Made by a program: the position numbers and the translations under genes. Below, in pieces: positions 5,581 to 35,049 of a DNA stretch of 53,702 nucleotides. The notes beneath the pieces were generated by a model. That model was not told the DNA's origin and did no database searches. It saw only the letters and a list, made by a program, of their open reading frames with translations. Each line of letters begins with the position of its first letter. Within the stretch, counting starts at the first letter, position 1. The stretch comes from Candidatus Margulisiibacteriota bacterium (GTDB taxonomy: Bacteria; Margulisbacteria; Riflemargulisbacteria; GWF2-39-127), in the NCBI GenBank assembly GCA_003242895.1, contig QKMY01000052.1, positions 1 through 53,702 on the forward strand, read 5' to 3'.

Positions 5581-7794
5581 ATGTTACATCTTAGTATGAA
5601 AAAAAAGTTGCTTTTTGGAGGACTTGGCTCGATTATTCTATTGATCGGAACATTATCTTTTAGTTATCTTTCTACAAACAAAGTACTTAAATTGCAGCAT
5701 TCTGTAAAAGAGAATATGAGTATGGAAATTTTTCTGGAAGAAAAACTGGTTGATCATCTAGTCTGGATGAATACACTGTCCAATCATTTACTTGCAAGTC
5801 AAAAATTTGATAAGCAGACAGACCCGACCAAATGTGGATTCGGGAAATGGTATTATGAATATATGGATTCAAAAGAATTCAAAAGTATAGGCAAGAATTA
5901 TCAGGAATCCCTGCGAAGCATGGAACCTTTACATAATAAATTGCATGAATCTGCTGTAACCATATTGGAGATCGAGGAAGTTGAAGGCGAGGGAGGAAAA
6001 GATAGGGCGATACATGTTTATCAGGATGCAATTGGGACTGTTGAGCAACTTCAGAAAAAGTTTGCATACGTGAGAAAATTTTATAATAATCTATCTGTTG
6101 AAAACGAAAAGCTGCTGGCTAAAGAATCAGCTATAATGAAGACCGTTCTTTTGTTCACTTTTATGGGTATCATTATTTTAGTCACAATTATGATCTTGCT
6201 CGTTATTAAAGCTATGCGGACAATATTTACCAGACTTCACGATGCAATGGCAACGGAAGGTGATCTGACAAAGCGAATGCCTGTTGAAGGCTTCAACTGT
6301 TCCAGAATTACGGGCTGTGGAAAAACCGGATGCAAATGTTTTGACAAAGAGAGGGCCTGTTGGTTTGAAGTTGGGTCTTTTGCTTTTAACAAACGTGATA
6401 TTCAATGTCCGAAGATCCTTAATAATGTTTATAAAAGTTGCAAAGAATGCAAAGTTTACAAAATGGCGAATGAAGATGAGCTTAATGAAATAGGATATTA
6501 TTTCAACCACTTTATAGAAACCATTCAGCGAATGGTAAATAAGGTTAAGGAATCATCAAAAATAATGTTAAAGTCGTCTGTTGATCTAACTGCTGATGCG
6601 GATGAAACCTCAAATAGTTCGGAGGAAATCCTGAAAGTATCTAATACCCTTTCTGAAGATTTGGTAAAGCAGGATAATGAAGTTGAAAAAGTTACCAGTG
6701 CATTTAGAAGTATCAGAGATCGTGTAGATCAGATGTCAGAAAAATCACAAACGCAGTTTAAAGACACAGATGTAACCTTATCATTGATTAATGATACAGT
6801 TAAAAAAGTCGAAGTTCTCCGCAATGTCGTAAAGGAACAAACCGATAGTTTCAAAATTGTCACAGAGAATTCTAGCCAGGTAAAATCGGGGGTAGATCAG
6901 ATAGCTACTGATGCTAACAAAATGTCTGAGGATTCTTCCCGAACACTTGAACTTACAAAAAAAGGTGAGAGAGTGGTTAATGAGAGTGTTGATGGTATGG
7001 CAAAAGTGAAGAATACTGTTGAAGGAACGGCAGTAAAAATCAATGAGCTGGGCAAAAATATGTCACAGATTGGGGAAATCATTGAGGTTATTAACGGTAT
7101 CGCAGATCAAACTAATCTGCTGGCACTGAATGCCGCAATTGAATCTGCAAGGGCCGGTGAACATGGCCGGGGATTTTCCGTAGTTGCCGATGAAGTTCGG
7201 AAGCTGGCAGAGCGGTCAACCAAAGCTACTGACGAAATAGCAATATTAATCAGATCTATCCAGCATGGAACAAATGAAGCCGTTAAAGCCATGGAAGGTG
7301 GTATTATAGAGGTAGAAAATGGAATGAATCTGTCAATTCATACTAAAGAAGTGCTTTTAAGCATAACAGAAGCCATGGATAAGATATTCGTACAAATCCA
7401 GAGTATTTCCAGCTCAACAGAGGAAATTGCCGCTAACTCTACAGAGACATATGAGATTATGGGAGGAATTAAAAACAAGAACGATAGCAGCCTGGGTTCG
7501 ATCAATCAGGTTCACACCGTTTTCCAGAGCGTCCAGTCTTCTGTGAATATTTCAAAAGATATTGCAGCAAATAACGTTAAGTTTGCGAGTGAAGTAAGCG
7601 AATATAGCAAGTCAACGGAAAACTCCGTTAATACAGTGAGAGATATAACTAATCAGAATACTGCTCTTTCGGAAGAATTAAATGCATCTACTCAGCATAT
7701 TCAGGATTCAATGGAAAATGTTTCAAAAGCTGCATATAATCTCAAAAAACTTGCCACAGAACTGGAAGATAATCTCAACATGTTTAAGTCCTGA
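5581..7794 (+). CDS. Methyl-accepting chemotaxis protein with CZB-like and Cys-rich domains
   Basis: A 737-residue chemoreceptor. TM1 is about 11-30 and TM2 about 188-212. The periplasmic part carries the chemoreceptor zinc-binding pattern: HxxW at H59, CGFGKWY at C85, and two His in LHNKLH near 118-122. After TM2, the HAMP-like linker is interrupted at about 239-285 by a Cys-rich insert (CxxxxxxCxxxxCxC...CW...C...CxxC). The signalling hairpin tip, with [11 protein letters not shown] and [12 protein letters not shown], lies near 505-545. CZB domains sense zinc and hypochlorous acid in other bacteria; redox or metal sensing is inferred here. The start at 5581 is chosen over an upstream TTG because AAAAGGAG precedes it by seven bases. 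A strong terminator follows; no che genes are nearby. Confidence 0.92.
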
Positions 7795-18414: not shown

Positions 18415-20505
18415 ATGTTTTATAATCTGAGCTTTTTTTCAATTAAAGCGAAAATAGCGGTAATTGCTAATGTGATTTGCGGTTTTTTGATTGTTATTGC
18501 AATTTTATCTGTTTTTATCCTTAGTACTATGGAACGTTCAATGGGAACGATATACAACGATTCGGTGTTACCAATGAAGGAATGGTCGCAGCTGAGATTT
18601 CATATAGAAACAATAAAAGGAAAACTCTATTATCATGTTGCGGAAAGTGATGAGGAACGCCTTACTGCTATAGAAAACGAAATCGACTCGCTGACCAGAC
18701 AAATAAATGATCTATATATCTCCAAATTGAAAGTTGTTACAAAGAATAACAATACTGTGACTGATCTATCCAAAATTGATTTGAACAAGGAATCACTGCA
18801 GAATATTCAGCGTTTATTTCTGGTTGAATGGCAAAAGCTAGAATCTGACATTAAAGCGATAACCGAGATGAGTAAGTCTTATTTAAAAGAAGATGCCAGT
18901 AATAAATTAAAAACAGCGTTTGATTCGGTAGATAAGGTAAGCGACATAACATTCGAAAAATACATTAAGAATACATTTGTTTTATATCAAAGCAGTAAAA
19001 AAATGAATGTTAATAGTTTAATTATCTTTATTGTTATTTCTGTGCTGGCAGTTATTCTTTCACAAGTTCTAAGCAGAAAGATTTCACTGGATATATCTCA
19101 AAAACTAGCAATTATTAATAAATCATTTGAACAGATTGGCGCAGGCAACTTAACTACTCAGGTAACAATCAGCAGCCGTATTCCTGATGACTTGGATATT
19201 ACCGCCAGACTGCTTAATGAAATGACGCAGAAATTGCAGGAAGTATTAAAACTATCGATTACTGCATCTGCTGCCACTAACGAGCTAATAATCCAGAGCA
19301 ATAATAAAATTCAGGAAATAACTGATAATACTGATGAAATTAATAATAACATAACCAATGTTTCCAAAGCTGCTGAAAATCAGGTCAGAAACATTAACGA
19401 AGTACTGGATGAGATGAAAGAGATACTGGACGTGGCGGGAAATGTTTACATCGGTACTGATCAGCAGGTCAGGTTAATGAAACAATCAGAAGATAATATA
19501 AATAATAACAATACTATTGTAAATCAGATTAATGATTCTTCTCACATCGAGAAGAAAGAATTGTTCGAAATGAGGGCTATTGTAAACAATATGATCATGG
19601 CAATAAAGCAGATCAGTGCCGATTCTACCAATGCAGCTCAGGCCGCTGTTAATACCTCCAATATCGCACAGGACGGAAAAAACGTACTATCTGATACATT
19701 GGAAGGACTTACACAGATACATCGTAATATGCTTGAAGCAGGAGAAAAAGTACATAATCTGGGGGAACAATCATCAAAAATTATTCAGATAGTTGAAGTT
19801 ATTGATGATATTTCAGGACAAACTAATCTGTTGGCTCTTAATGCTGCGATAGAAGCTGCCAGAGCCGGTGAGCATGGCCGTGGATTTGCTGTCGTAGCCG
19901 ATGAGGTAAGAAAACTGGCGGAAAAAGCTGTTAAAGCTACAAAAAATATTTCCGATCTCATAAAGATAACCCAGGGAGAAATACAAAAAGTTACAGATTA
20001 CTTCAGTAATGTCAGTAACAGTGTAAAAAAAGAAGTGGAAATGGCAAATCAAACCAAAGAAGCTTTTGTTAATATTGTTGAGGGAGTGAATAGCATTACT
20101 GCACAAGTACAAAATATTTCTGCAGCATCGGAAGAACTGTCAGCTTCGACATCCGATGTAACGGAAATGACTGATCATGTTTGCAACATTGTTGATAAAA
20201 ATGTTAATACAATGAGCGATGTAGTAACTAATTTCGCCAAATTGAAGGAATCCATTACTGAAACGAGAACTTTTTCGGAACAAAGTAAAACCATGATTAA
20301 TGAACTTAAAGAAAAAGATTTGCATGTTAATGATAAACTTGGATATATTTTGAACATTTCAAAAGATAACTCGGATTATGCAACCTCAACTAATGCTTCG
20401 ATGGAAGAAATTGGTGATAAAATGAAAGATATTCATAAACAAATGAACGATCTATCAGTAATATCTACTGAATTATCGAAACAAGTAGGTATTTTTACTG
20501 TCTGA
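18415..20505 (+). CDS. Methyl-accepting chemotaxis protein
   Basis: A 696-residue chemoreceptor. TM1 is about 13-36; a periplasmic helical region (37-195) of the four-helix-bundle type follows; TM2 is about 198-217; HAMP is about 218-272. A long cytoplasmic coiled coil has its tip around 457-512 ([20 protein letters not shown] and [15 protein letters not shown]). GGGGAGG ahead of the ATG supports the start. The periplasmic domain has no Cys or His cluster; the ligand is unknown. No che genes adjoin. The protein ends in [11 protein letters not shown] without a CheR-tether pentapeptide. Confidence 0.92.
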
Positions 20506-21715: not shown

Positions 21716-23806
21716 TTATAGTTTGAACTGCGAGACGTTATCCGTTAGGTTAATCGCCAGATTCCGGATATTAGCTATCATCTCATTAATACCTAGAGTA
21801 ACCGCGGTGATCTCTTCGGATGACGCGTTGACTTCTTCTGCCGTTGAGGAGTTGTCTTCTGCCAGATTCACTACATTATCCACCTTTTTGATAGAATTTT
21901 CGTGACCGCTTCTCATGGCATTTGATAGTTCTTTATTGTTATCTGCGACTTTCTTGATCTCATTGAAAGAGTTGACCATACTTTCCGTATTGCCAACAGC
22001 TTTCGTTACTGATACCAGCGTCTTCTCAACTGTTTGGGCAATGTTATTAATACTATTTACTGTCTCTCCGCTGGAAGCGTTTATTTCTTCCGCAGCAGCT
22101 GAAATACTCTGTATCTGCTGGACAGTATCCGTTACCGCATGAATTATCTTTGTCAGCTCTTCCCTGGCCTGGCTGGCAAGCTCCGATCCTTTTTTGACTT
22201 CAAGTGTACCTGTTTCCATGGATTTAACAGTTTCGACAGTTATACTTTGGATGTTTTTGATTATTGCTGCTATTTCTTTGGTCGCTTTTGTTGATCTTTC
22301 GGCAAGCTTTCGTACTTCATCGGCAACGACCGCAAAACCACGGCCCTGCTCACCTGCCCTGGCCGCTTCTATTGCAGCATTAAGGGCAAGCAGGTTGGTT
22401 TGGCCCGCTATGTCATTAATCACTTCGACGATCTCGCCGATTTGTGTAGAGCTTTCACCAAGAAGGTTTATTTTGTCTGCCGTGTTCATAACAGTTTCTT
22501 TTATGTTGTTAATACTATTAACGGCATTTATAACAATTGTTTCGCCGTTAGCGGCGATGCGGGCTGTTTTTTCGGAGTTCTGCGAAACGTTGTTGGCTTC
22601 TATCGAGACCTGCTCTATGGCGCGGGCCATTTGTTCAGTGATCATTTTTGCGTTCTTTATTTCGTCACTTTCTTTTTTCGCTTCGTTATAGAGGCCGGAA
22701 ATAGCTTCGTTATTTTCATTTATATTTTTAACAGCCTTGCTGATATCTGCCACCTGCTTATCCGCACCCTGTGCGACCTTATTGATAATTCCCATTTTCT
22801 CGCCAAGATCAGCCTTAACGTAACTGAGATCAGTAACCTGTCTACCTGCTGATTCGGCTACTGAAGTGATTGCCAGGGTTATCTGCTCTACCCCTGTTGC
22901 GCTTTCCCGGTGCATTGTGGATAGATCCTGGAACTTTTCGGTAATGGTTAAGGCAAGCTCCTTAACGTTTTTGATAAGGTTCTTTAAATCTCCAACCATG
23001 GTATTGATACTCGTGTTTATCTGGCCTACTTCATTATTGTTTTTGCCGTCAAGGATTACATCCAGTTCGCCTCTTGATATCTTCTTCAGTGCTTCTACGA
23101 TCGTATTGATAGGTGCCGACAAAGAACTTATTATAATCAATGCAAATATTATCGTAACTAGAAAACCGGCTACTGCGATAGTGATTAGTAAGAAGGTACG
23201 CTGAGATATAATGCCTGTTGTGTCTTTTTCCAGCTTGCTGTTCATGTCAGTAGCTGCTGCGACGACTTTATCGACGTACCCGCGATGCTCCTGGTATTTT
23301 TTCTTTAGGATACCCATTGCCAGTTCAGAAGCTCTGTCTTTATTTCCTTCAAGGATAGCCGGAATAAACTTACTGTCCCGAATACTAAAGAATTCAATTG
23401 CCGGATCATACGCATGAAGCACCATATCATCTTTCATTTCTTTAGGCGCAAACGGATTAGTCCAGAAAGAATATCTATCTTTATTTATCCAGTATTCATG
23501 CCTGACATCATAATCTATCTTCAATTGCTTGCTTTTTTCCAACAGGATTTTTAATTCTTCCTCGTCATTATTATTTAGCATTTCAAGTACGACAAGATAG
23601 GCTTCGATAATATATTCCGGAGGAGGCAGGATATCGGCTATTAGATCTTTTCCCAGTACAATGTTTGTATAGATAGGACCGTTAACCTTTACCTTGTTCA
23701 GTGTAGTATATGAATATATCCCGAATACCAGAAACGCCAGTGAAAATATGCCGATAGTAAGCAACAGTTGATCCTTTATCCTCAAGCCCTTTATATAATT
23801 CAACAT
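21716..23806 (-). CDS. Methyl-accepting chemotaxis protein
   Basis: A 696-residue chemoreceptor on the minus strand. TM1 is about 13-32; the periplasmic domain (33-200) opens with [20 protein letters not shown], a conserved-looking signature seen in other chemoreceptors, and contains [14 protein letters not shown]2 is about 203-227; HAMP is about 228-280 ([11 protein letters not shown]). The tip, [20 protein letters not shown] plus [15 protein letters not shown], is intact. AAAAGGAG precedes the ATG. The ligand is unknown. It faces the rhodanese gene tail to tail and has a 650-base upstream region to itself and the next plus-strand gene. Confidence 0.92.
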
Positions 23807-29459: not shown

Positions 29460-31799
29460 TCAGGTAAGTGTTTCATCTAGCAATTCAGTGCTTTTTTGTA
29501 ATTCGCGGGCAGAATGTAAGAATTGATCTACATCCATTTCTTTGAGAAAAACAAATCCCCGGGTGGTTTTTAAGATATTGCTCTGAACATCGGTGAAAGC
29601 CTCGTTTTTGTAATAATCATCACCCAGCAATTGGGTGATGATATTCTTCTGCTCAGCCTGTATTTTGACAGCTAAGCCAGAAAAAGGACCATCATACTCA
29701 TAACTCGGGAAGGATGCGTTCTTTTGTGATGAAAAACAACTCAGGAACATTTTTTGCATTTCAAGCAGATCTGCATTTTGGACAGGGATAAAGGTAGTGG
29801 CCTCTGCCGGGGTGAACCGGTACCAGATATTCCGGTAACCCCAGAACAATGGCTTTTTGTCCGGTGCCATACGAATAGCCTGGGCTATAATCTGCAATAC
29901 TTTATAATGAGTATCCGGGCCACTCCCTTCGGGATCAAAAGCAACTGTGACGAAATCAGGGTTTATAGACTCCATAAGTTCATAAACCGGGAGTGCATCC
30001 TCATCAATAGTTGGAGCAGGAGTGAAGAGGTCTCCGGTATAAAAATGCAGGCGCATATGATGAATATTGTAATTGGGAACCCCAATGATATTCCACTTTC
30101 TGTCAGACTCAGTTTCCCTGATAGCTCCCTTGAATATCTGTATATCATGCGGATCTTTCTGTCCGGGATACGCGTTATGGAAATACGTACGCAGTTCCCT
30201 GATCTTTACATGAACATGATCAATATCGGTAATGGTAAAACATCGGATAATTGTTTTAACGAAAAGCAGCTCTTCCACTGCATGCATTTTTTCATAATCA
30301 TTGCTTTTATAAGCCGAAGTGAACTGCTCCAGAATAACACGTTCGTGATGATTAAACAGGAGATCCAACTCGTCGTTCGTGTAGACCCGGTCAACTTTGA
30401 TTAACAGGTCTTCCACGAAATGGTTCGACAACGCATTGAAGCCACTGGTCAAATAGGCGGAGAAGTTAGTATTGGTATGCGCCAGGTAATTCATGGCGGG
30501 CAAATATGATAACATAATGTCATCATGATGAGGTGAAGTATGGAGGATTGTTTTTCCCTGCGGCAAATGAAGGCCTCTCTGTATCTTTCTGATAATTGCA
30601 GCTTTTGTTCCCTGTAATAGATGATCAATATTTGCGGGTTCCAGTTTTTCCAGTAATGCTTTTCCCTGCAGATGACTGCGCAGGTCCTCGATCTTGAGAT
30701 CATCGAGTTTCTTTCCGCAGTTTAAAGAAACAGTAATGAGTATATCATCAATAAGGTGCTGGTTGGCAGTTCCTGTCGGGATAACTTTGAGGTCCTCAAT
30801 TTCTCTGGCTTGCAGCCGGGATGCAGCTCCTTTGGTCAGATAGAAGCGGGCGTTAGTCCGGTCCTGTAATATAGCTGCTGGATAGTCCGGGTGCTGCCGG
30901 TTTTGGACTGCACTGGCAACCATGACTGACTTCGCTTCACCTGAAGCTATTATAATAGCTGTAATATCCTTATTCTCTATTATGGTTCCCAGTCCTATTG
31001 TGATGACAGCTTTGTTCCGCGCTGTCTCAATCCCGCCCAGGTCAGCCGCAGCAGCAGCTGCACTTTCATAGTTGAGAGCTAGTAATCTTGTCCTGCTAGA
31101 ATAATCTGATCCTTTAATATTAAATGCGATATGGCCGTCAGGACCGATACCGCCGAGGAAGAATCCTATACCGCCCCATGAACGTATCTTTTTTTCGTAA
31201 TCGAGACAATAGTTGTCGGCCTCCAGGATAGCCTGTTTCTGAAGTATTTCGAGTTTATTTCGCGGTTCCCGTTCTCTGAGCAGAAGATCGACGTTACCCT
31301 TTGGAAAAATCCGGTGATAGTTTGTTTTTGACAATAGCCCGATTTTGGAACTATCAATTAACAATGCGTTCACTTGTGTAATTCCGAGTAAAGGAAGATA
31401 GTAATTCCGTACATAATAATTAAAACTGTTATGCTGGCAGGGATCGATCGGATAGAACTCGTCGATTTGAATGAATTTTAGCCTGGTAGTGTCCGGGAAG
31501 TGAAGGTTGTCAATTCCATTCGATTTTAAGTCGAGCTGGACTCCCTGGTCATTCCAATGGGCTTTATAGTGATGGAGGTATTTAATAAAATATTCCGGTG
31601 ATTTGCCTGTGGGAAGCGCTATGACTCCTTCCGGATGAGCGATAACCCATTCCAGAAAGCGGAGGACCGTTAGCTTGCCAAGTTCAACAACATTCTGTAC
31701 CTCGATAACCGGGATTTTTTCTTGAGGATAGATCAGTTCTCTGGTACTTTGCCTTAGATAAACTTTTTCGACGGCACTCAAATGATACAGAATCATCAT
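29460..31799 (-). CDS. Glucosamine-6-phosphate deaminase fused to a PIG-L-type deacetylase
   Basis: A 779-residue fusion. About 30-345 is a NagB-type isomerase/deaminase (IALPTGKSPEYF, IDEFYPIDPCQHNSF, GIGPDGHIAFN near 220). About 405-690 is a LmbE/PIG-L metal-dependent N-deacetylase with the zinc motif SPHHDD near 420 and an HMRLHFYTGD region. Together they would deacetylate GlcNAc-type sugars and convert glucosamine-6-phosphate to fructose-6-phosphate plus ammonia. Similar NagB-PIG-L fusions are known, mostly ~640 aa; this one is longer in both linker and tail. AAGGAG directly abuts the first ATG; the second ATG (31796) is equally possible. No sugar transporter is adjacent. Confidence 0.87.
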   Translation of the reverse strand: MMILYHLSAVEKVYLRQSTRELIYPQEKIPVIEVQNVVELGKLTVLRFLEWVIAHPEGVIALPTGKSPEYFIKYLHHYKAHWNDQGVQLDLKSNGIDNLHFPDTTRLKFIQIDEFYPIDPCQHNSFNYYVRNYYLPLLGITQVNALLIDSSKIGLLSKTNYHRIFPKGNVDLLLREREPRNKLEILQKQAILEADNYCLDYEKKIRSWGGIGFFLGGIGPDGHIAFNIKGSDYSSRTRLLALNYESAAAAAADLGGIETARNKAVITIGLGTIIENKDITAIIIASGEAKSVMVASAVQNRQHPDYPAAILQDRTNARFYLTKGAASRLQAREIEDLKVIPTGTANQHLIDDILITVSLNCGKKLDDLKIEDLRSHLQGKALLEKLEPANIDHLLQGTKAAIIRKIQRGLHLPQGKTILHTSPHHDDIMLSYLPAMNYLAHTNTNFSAYLTSGFNALSNHFVEDLLIKVDRVYTNDELDLLFNHHERVILEQFTSAYKSNDYEKMHAVEELLFVKTIIRCFTITDIDHVHVKIRELRTYFHNAYPGQKDPHDIQIFKGAIRETESDRKWNIIGVPNYNIHHMRLHFYTGDLFTPAPTIDEDALPVYELMESINPDFVTVAFDPEGSGPDTHYKVLQIIAQAIRMAPDKKPLFWGYRNIWYRFTPAEATTFIPVQNADLLEMQKMFLSCFSSQKNASFPSYEYDGPFSGLAVKIQAEQKNIITQLLGDDYYKNEAFTDVQSNILKTTRGFVFLKEMDVDQFLHSARELQKSTELLDETLT

Positions 31800-33184: not shown

Positions 33185-33212
33185 TTGACAGCGGGATAAG
33201 ATCGACTATAAT
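33185..33212 (+). promoter_or_regulatory. Strong sigma-70 promoter of the small RNA
   Basis: A consensus TTGACA (33185-33190) and a consensus TATAAT (33207-33212) are 16 bases apart. No coding gene starts within the next 300 bases. Confidence 0.75.
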
Positions 33213-33217
33213 GCCGG

Positions 33218-33288
33218 GTAGCTAGCGAGTGTCCACTTTAAGTACCTCCGGACTTAGGTCCGGGAAGAAAGAAGTGGACATCTTTTTT
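33218..33288 (+). ncRNA. Candidate small RNA with two-tier hairpin and terminator
   Basis: About 70 bases long, from the predicted start to the end of a T run. TGTCCACTT (33230-33238) pairs with AAGTGGACA (33272-33280) as a 9-bp outer stem followed by TCTTTTTT. Inside it, CCGGAC TTAG GTCCGG (33248-33263) is a perfect inner hairpin. Between the two stems lies ACCTCC (33244-33249), identical to the anti-Shine-Dalgarno core of 16S rRNA. A perfect promoter at one end and an intrinsic terminator at the other argue for a free-standing RNA. A leader attenuator for the flavoprotein gene 246 bases downstream is the alternative. I do not recognise a known RNA family. Confidence 0.6.
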
Positions 33289-33534
33289 GACCCGGAAACA
33301 ACTCCCGCAGCAATGAACCCGATTACGTTTGTCAAGAAAATCTAATGGCGAAATCGCTTAATTGAATAGTCTGCAACTATAGAAATAATGATTATCGCTT
33401 GAATGAAATAGGAGTATGAAAATGATCACTCTTGCCGATTATTTTTAACCTTGATTTTGAGCAGCCGCTCATTATAATAGCCAAAAATTATTAATTTTTA
33501 ATGGGTCCATGCTTGAAACTGAAAGGTTGATATT

Positions 33535-35049
33535 ATGAAAATCTATGATCTCATTGTTGTTGGAAGCGGGGTGGGCTTGACGGTGTTGAGCGAGGGCATT
33601 GATCAGGGACTTGAGTGTGCTTTAATCGAGAGTGGGAAGATGGGTGGTACCTGTTTGACGAGAGGATGTATTCCATCCAAGATACTCACTGAACCGGCAG
33701 ACATAATCCGGCAGGAAGAGCGGGCAAAAAAAATTGGTCTTAGCTTCGAGATTAAGGAATATGACTGGGATCTGATAGCTCAACGGATGTGGTCGCAAAT
33801 TGATGAGAGTAAAGCCATGAACGAGAGTTTGTCTTCGATAGAAAACTTAACCGTTTACCGGGGAGTTGGCGAGTTTACCGACGAATATCGAATGAAAGTA
33901 AGAACCAATGCAAAAGGAGATTATTCCGAAGAGTTTGTAGGGAAAAAGATTCTTTTGACGAGCGGGGCTAGACCGGTTATTCCTTATATTGAAGGCATTG
34001 AACAGGTTGGCTATGTGACCTACGAGACGTTTTTCGGTGACAAGTTCCCTCGTTCCCCGTGGAATAGTTTGATACTTATCGGTGGGGGAACTATTGCCGT
34101 TGAGTTTGCTCACATTTTATCAGCCTTTGGCACGGATATTACTATTGTTGAGATGAAACCGCGACTCGTCTCGACGGAAGAGGAGTTGATCAGCCGGAAA
34201 CTGGAAGAGCAGTTCATTGTTCGAGGTATGAACGTATTTACGACGTATCGGGCGGTGAGTGCCAGAATTGAAGAGGGAATGAAGGTTGTTACCGTAGAAG
34301 ATACCCTGACAGCTGAAAGAATTGAACTGGAAGCAGAAGAGATATTTATTGCAGCTGGTCTAAGATCAAATGCTGATGTGCTCAATGTTAATAAAACCGG
34401 AGTTCACACGGACAATAATGGCTGGATTGTGACAAATGAATACCTTGAAACTTCGAAACAGAATATCTGGGCATTTGGCGATGCGAATGGAAAATATCAA
34501 TTCCGGCATAAGGCCAACATGGAAGCGTCAATTTGCATGCAGAATATGTTCGGAACCAAAAAAATCGCGGTTGATTACTCTTCAGTTCCCTGGGCGGTTT
34601 TTTCTGATCCCCAAATTGGGCATGTCGGGATGACGGAAGAAGAGGCGATAGCCAAAGGTCACAAAATCTATGTTGCTGAAAACAATTATTCTTCAGTTGC
34701 TAAAGGGTTTGCTATGGGGCTTGAACCGGGAGATTATGACGACGGGTACTTCAAGCTGATAATTGACAGGTCGTATAAGATCCTCGGTGCTCACGCGATA
34801 GGCCCGGAAGCAGCATTGCTTGTTCAGCCCTTTGTTTATTTGATGAATGCAGGCTATACCTGCGAAGGGCTCATCCAAAAAAGAGGCCGGGGAGTAACTG
34901 CAGACAAGCTGTTAAAAGCCTGTCCGGGTGCCGGGACCTTCCTTCCTCTTGATAGATCTATGGTTATCCATCCCTCTCTAAATGAAGTTGCCGGCTGGGC
35001 GATAGGGAACCTGCGATCGGTTAATATTCCACACGAACATGCTGCCTAG
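33535..35049 (+). CDS. Dihydrolipoamide dehydrogenase-like flavoprotein disulfide reductase
   Basis: A 504-residue pyridine nucleotide-disulfide oxidoreductase. FAD motif GSGVGL near 12; redox disulfide GGTCLTRGCIPSK (C40, C45); NAD(P)-binding region GGGTIAVEFA near 187; FAD motif FGDANGKYQ near 318; C-terminal base pair HPSLNE (H479, E484). These match the dihydrolipoamide dehydrogenase/mercuric reductase branch. No lipoyl or E2 genes adjoin, so the true partner (lipoyl protein, mycothiol or other disulfide) is unknown. An AAAGG precedes the ATG. A hairpin without a T run follows the stop. Confidence 0.88.
   Translation: MKIYDLIVVGSGVGLTVLSEGIDQGLECALIESGKMGGTCLTRGCIPSKILTEPADIIRQEERAKKIGLSFEIKEYDWDLIAQRMWSQIDESKAMNESLSSIENLTVYRGVGEFTDEYRMKVRTNAKGDYSEEFVGKKILLTSGARPVIPYIEGIEQVGYVTYETFFGDKFPRSPWNSLILIGGGTIAVEFAHILSAFGTDITIVEMKPRLVSTEEELISRKLEEQFIVRGMNVFTTYRAVSARIEEGMKVVTVEDTLTAERIELEAEEIFIAAGLRSNADVLNVNKTGVHTDNNGWIVTNEYLETSKQNIWAFGDANGKYQFRHKANMEASICMQNMFGTKKIAVDYSSVPWAVFSDPQIGHVGMTEEEAIAKGHKIYVAENNYSSVAKGFAMGLEPGDYDDGYFKLIIDRSYKILGAHAIGPEAALLVQPFVYLMNAGYTCEGLIQKRGRGVTADKLLKACPGAGTFLPLDRSMVIHPSLNEVAGWAIGNLRSVNIPHEHAA

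Follow-up and report, generated by a model that had tools for sequence, protein, structure and literature searches.

Sibling small RNAs (sRNAs) such as OmrA/OmrB and PrrF1/PrrF2 (reviewed in PMC4211561) and the multicopy sRNA LhrC (PMC4132741) are encoded by several highly similar genes per genome, which are presumed to be duplicates. Here we report a family that agrees with this definition of two or more closely similar sRNA genes per genome (PMC4211561), with six copies in the genome of a Candidatus Margulisiibacteriota bacterium, whose comparison identifies it with high confidence as a real sRNA gene family. Unlike OmrA/OmrB, PrrF1/PrrF2 and LhrC, which it matches neither as a sequence nor as a structure family, it has the form of a single rod-shaped hairpin with a palindromic 5' leader. 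An Hfq gene (PF17209), found in five controls, was not found in the same genome, which sets the family apart from Hfq-dependent sRNAs, whose genomes encode Hfq.

The window, i.e. the whole stretch of 53,702 nt that was analysed (contig QKMY01000052.1), contains one copy (labelled C52) at 33185-33288 of the forward strand, consisting of a promoter, a two-tier hairpin and a U-tract. The promoter, TTGACA-16-TATAAT, is a perfect sigma-70 consensus (12 of 12 positions), with the -35 hexamer at 33185-33190 (promoter scoring and sibling comparison) and the -10 hexamer at 33207-33212. The RNA body starts at about 33217-33220 and ends at 33288; the 72-nt stretch 33217-33288, which begins 4 nt past the -10 hexamer, is predicted to fold with -27.3 kcal/mol (z = -3.3), a stability reached by none of 200 shuffled sequences. 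The single-stranded 5' leader GGTAGCTAGC (33217-33226) is followed by a rod in which folding and alignment delimit the 5' arm of the outer stem (GTGTCCACTT region, 33228-33239), the inner hairpin (TCCGGAC-TTAG-GTCCGGG, 33247-33264) and the 3' arm of the outer stem (GAAGTGGACATC, 33271-33282); the internal loop between the stems has AAGTACC (33240-33246) on its 5' side and AAGAAA (33265-33270) on its 3' side. The outer stem has 12 pairs, the internal loop 7 and 6 nt and the inner hairpin 7 pairs, and the rod ends in six U residues (33283-33288; sequence and sibling alignment). A terminator scanner that considers only loops of 3-8 nt did not report the C52 terminator; by eye, the outer stem followed by TTTTTT forms an intrinsic terminator, which is kept in all siblings except C12a. 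No open reading frame of at least 40 aa lies inside the hairpin, whose frames contain stops or lack a start. An earlier note on this DNA, made from the sequence alone, had described a consensus promoter directly before a hairpin of about 70 bases in two tiers, with a terminator at its end and no gene inside, and all of these features were confirmed. A pairing of CCGGGT (33214-33219) with ACCCGG (33290-33295) past the U-tract occurs in C52 only and was treated as chance.

A DNA search of the own genome (3.35 Mb, 82 contigs) returned six copies, none with an E-value worse than about 1e-14, which represent five distinct sequences on four contigs (C52 and C71 with one copy each, C12 and C46 with two each). 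A covariance model built from these five distinct sequences themselves scored the six copies at 86-99 bits and every other match in the genome at 20 bits or less; a weak match at C59 fell within a coding sequence (glyA-like, by eye) and was discarded as a sibling. The RNA bodies are 74-93% identical among distinct copies (74-100% over all six) and fold alike in all five distinct sequences (z -3.1 to -5.2). The 16-nt promoter spacers share only 12-50% identity among distinct copies, i.e. they are randomised, and the flanks are at background, the BLAST similarity among distinct copies covering approximately 70-87 bp, namely the -10 region and the RNA next to it. A spacing of exactly 16 nt between TTGAC(N) and TATAAT is shared by all but one of the five distinct sequences and by five of the six copies (C52, C46a, C46b, C12b and C71), TTGAC being kept in every sibling with an intact promoter. 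Since the hexamers are kept around a randomised spacer, both the promoter and the RNA are under selection, and the existence of sibling copies places the C52 hairpin well beyond chance. C12a, in which the -10 hexamer is lost and the U-tract interrupted (TTTGTT), may be a decaying copy. The stretches C46:16464-16724 and 19070-19334 are a recent duplication of the sRNA together with about 90 nt 3' of the terminator, and ParE/ParD-like toxin-antitoxin genes adjoin one of the duplicates.

The neighbouring genes differ at every copy. C52 is accompanied by a 141-aa gene of unknown kind and a pyridine nucleotide-disulphide oxidoreductase (flavoprotein) gene (33535-35049, forward strand), C12b by SPFH-like and DUF2267 genes, C12a by rhodanese-like and DUF2087 genes, the C46 copies by MATE-like, FkbH-like and ParE/ParD-like genes, and C71 by hydrogenase-like and TetR-like genes; the DUF2267, DUF2087 and oxidoreductase assignments were checked against Pfam and the remaining names were given by eye. 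Because no neighbour is shared, the family is no cis element of a particular gene, and the constant position before one gene class that characterises attenuators and riboswitches was not found. The six dispersed copies with their different surroundings agree with the earlier view of a free-standing small RNA. Taken at the level of sequence comparison, the copies show common descent, selection on the hexamers and the RNA body, and a common two-tier fold. Elsewhere in the window, the stretches 7064-7296, 19787-19924 and 22214-22446 are mutually similar DNA (72-80%), also resemble a HAMP/MCP-like gene on C12, and are probably chemotaxis-receptor signalling domains; 29460-31799 (reverse strand) encodes a 779-aa protein that appears by eye to be a glucosamine-6-phosphate isomerase fused to an LmbE-like deacetylase.

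The combined pattern of promoter and AGCTAGC matched seven times in the own genome, compared with no match for the reversed control. Five matches were family copies, one lay within a gene by chance, and one was located at C23:49746-49860, between mreB-like and motA-like genes. The C23 element has TTGACG-16-TATTAT and AGCTAGCT, and then a long, nearly perfect hairpin with about 20 pairs ahead of its inner loop (z -3.3), but no clear terminator. Its covariance-model score (18.4 bits, E about 2) is not significant alone; because of its promoter and leader, and not of this score, we regard it as a probable seventh, diverged member of the family.

Among the five distinct sequences, 97.8% of the pair cells are standard in register, compared with 30-54% when the partners are slid. 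The pair changes comprise several wobble changes and one compensatory change (A-U to G-C), and in C71 one pair is missing altogether (columns 32 and 49 both deleted). Compensatory changes, which the earlier note had expected of homologues, are thus represented by a single double change among the own-genome copies, but shuffles reach the same value, and the formal covariation test on five sequences is weak. Seven of 11 outer-stem pairs never vary, which is more sequence constancy than pairing requires. The palindromic leader AGCUAGC and much of the outer stem are invariant across the siblings, the leader also recurring in the C23 element. The internal loop has AGUA (33241-33244; AAUA in C12a) opposite an invariant GAA (33267-33269), in the register A26-A54, bulged G27, U28-A53 and A29-G52 (alignment columns). 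The bulged-G (loop E) consensus is known from the sarcin-ricin loop, and in a post hoc reading the internal loop resembles this motif; the chance of finding AGUA and GAA together in one internal loop is approximately 0.0025. The leader is mostly unpaired in the predicted fold (unpaired probability 0.77-0.94). It is its own complement, and leader-leader duplexes of -12 to -13.8 kcal/mol are predicted for every copy, so a dimer is possible. DsrA is a self-assembling palindromic sRNA; the family resembles it in a self-complementary, single-stranded stretch through which two molecules could pair, but differs from it in sequence, position and fold.

In the window, Rfam gave no match above the gathering cut-off and one unrelated match (E 4.2) at a relaxed threshold, in line with the earlier statement that no known family has this layout. 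Across a further 73 genomes of the phylum, which share at most the class with the own genome, neither the DNA search nor the covariance model found a homologue; the kind of covariance search proposed in the earlier note returned the own-genome copies and none in these 73 genomes. The pattern of promoter and AGCTAGC occurred at control level in the other phylum genomes, plasmids and phages gave no match, and a scan of genome contigs (about 85,000 species) and viral contigs with an exact pattern, strict enough for diverged relatives to escape it, returned none. With no homologue outside the own genome, the conservation is one among paralogues, and gene conversion among the copies could be an alternative cause of their likeness. 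The family is apparently restricted to its lineage, and as far as the libraries searched show, it is a sibling-sRNA family undescribed so far.

We conclude that C52 is very probably a free-standing gene for a small non-coding RNA and one of six dispersed copies. Each copy would be a self-contained unit with a strong vegetative promoter and an RNA of approximately 70 nt, whose hairpin would serve both as body and as terminator. The RNA would act in trans, and we infer that its recognition element is the invariant leader at the 5' end, (G)GUAGCUAGCU(G), which would be held outside the stable rod, while the rod would protect the 3' end. Contact with another RNA would be made by a short seed without Hfq, or by leader-to-leader dimerisation, and the structured internal loop would provide a further contact site, probably one for protein. 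Several copies could supply the dose or the different timing of one activity. The leader has about an even chance of being the working part, and we hold the statement as a whole, a dispersed sibling-sRNA family acting in trans via its 5' leader, with the same half confidence. The earlier note had suggested target prediction against start regions. The 12-nt leader complement had two near-matches outside the family in the own genome, compared with 12 in the control, and in a start-codon seed test (stretches covering 21% of the genome) the AGCTAGC heptamers, in either form, were found at none of 495 starts, with an expectation of approximately 1.2 each that is so small that a single target would be missed. 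Given the near-absence of the leader complement outside the family and of any heptamer at the sampled starts, the data do not favour antisense pairing with start regions.

The reading put forward in the earlier note concerned another part of the RNA. Anti-Shine-Dalgarno sRNAs are characterised by a C-rich loop, and C52 likewise has ACCUCC near the stem junction (ACCTCC, 33244-33249), which was thought to be exposed and to mask ribosome-binding sites. The motif is present, but its mostly unpaired part is limited to the first half (probabilities of being unpaired of 0.97/0.74/0.38/0.01/0.0 from 33245 on), its CC end falls in the inner stem, and, unlike in anti-Shine-Dalgarno sRNAs, a conserved, accessible CCUCC-type motif was not found: the sibling versions are ATTTCC, AGTTCC, ATTTCC and ACC-CC (with the preceding U in the RNA, UAUUUCC, UAGUUCC, UAUUUCC and UACC-CC). 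Starts are enriched 5-fold in GGAGGTA, the complement of the motif, as would be expected for any Shine-Dalgarno complement. Because the motif is lost in the siblings and half paired in C52, we reject anti-Shine-Dalgarno action as the function of the family, where it is very improbable, and masking of ribosome sites is probably not what the C52 RNA does. The fallback of the same note, a leader or attenuator of the flavoprotein gene, draws on the position of this gene on the same strand, 246 nt downstream of the C52 terminator, but none of the other copies precedes a flavoprotein gene, and the gene has a promoter-like TTGATT-16-TATAAT immediately upstream (33451-33478, forward strand), likely its own; we reject this reading as hardly credible. 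A search for the flavoprotein in the named genomes returned no relative. Equally hard to credit is a small protein gene with the frame V-S-T-L-S-x-S-G-L-R-S-G-K-K-E-V-D-I-F-F. This frame is open in C52, C46, C12b and C12a, with many silent changes across several copies, but it is closely preceded by an in-frame TAG, begins without a usual start codon (except GTG in one copy) and without a Shine-Dalgarno site, is lost in C71, and leads to unrelated C-termini. The location of both C46 copies within a 266-bp duplication (92% identical, 2.6 kb apart) would suit a short mobile element or non-functional repeat with a chance promoter and terminator. In the other copies, however, the spacer is randomised and the hexamers and RNA are kept, a pattern not produced by copying a whole neutral element, and we reject this improbable reading as well.

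The main rival to a trans-acting leader is a titrating or scaffold RNA whose rod and internal loop, perhaps in a head-to-head dimer formed via the leader, bind one regulatory protein; titration of a protein had also been named as an alternative in the earlier note. We regard it as possible but on balance unlikely. The constancy of the outer stem beyond the need for pairing, despite randomised spacers, the AGUA/GAA arrangement of the internal loop and the stable leader-leader duplexes all point in its direction; against it stand the post hoc nature of the loop E reading and the lack of a protein candidate. CsrA is encoded (PF02599 at C59, E 4.8e-20), and multiple copies together with an encoded CsrA are features shared with the Csr/Rsm titrating RNAs, but unlike these, no copy has GGA in its hairpin loops; the triplets lie in stems or at stem ends, the latter no more than once per RNA. 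A CsrA sponge, with several GGA in hairpin loops, was rejected. It is doubtful that AGCTAGCT is instead a DNA operator that overlaps the start site and co-regulates the copies, with the RNA working via its rod alone. The element is palindromic, lies 7 nt from the -10 hexamer in all intact copies (6 nt in the C23 element) and persists even in the C23 element, diverged as this is elsewhere, but it is also kept in C12a despite the decayed -10 hexamer, and no other gene's promoter has it in the form searched. We consider it a long shot that the multicopy RNA forms a head-to-head homodimer (or sibling heterodimer) via its palindromic 5' end, with the loop-E-type loop as a protein docking site.

With this family, a sparsely sampled bacterial lineage gains a previously undescribed set of multicopy, strongly promoted sRNA genes, in a genome that yielded no Hfq gene. 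It also illustrates that a striking motif in a single copy can be dismissed by comparing siblings. The invariant palindromic leader and the conserved internal loop offer a testable module. If the head-to-head dimer were true, the family would represent a class of regulatory RNA to which nothing described so far is related, and its host would be a bacterium whose genome yielded no Hfq gene.
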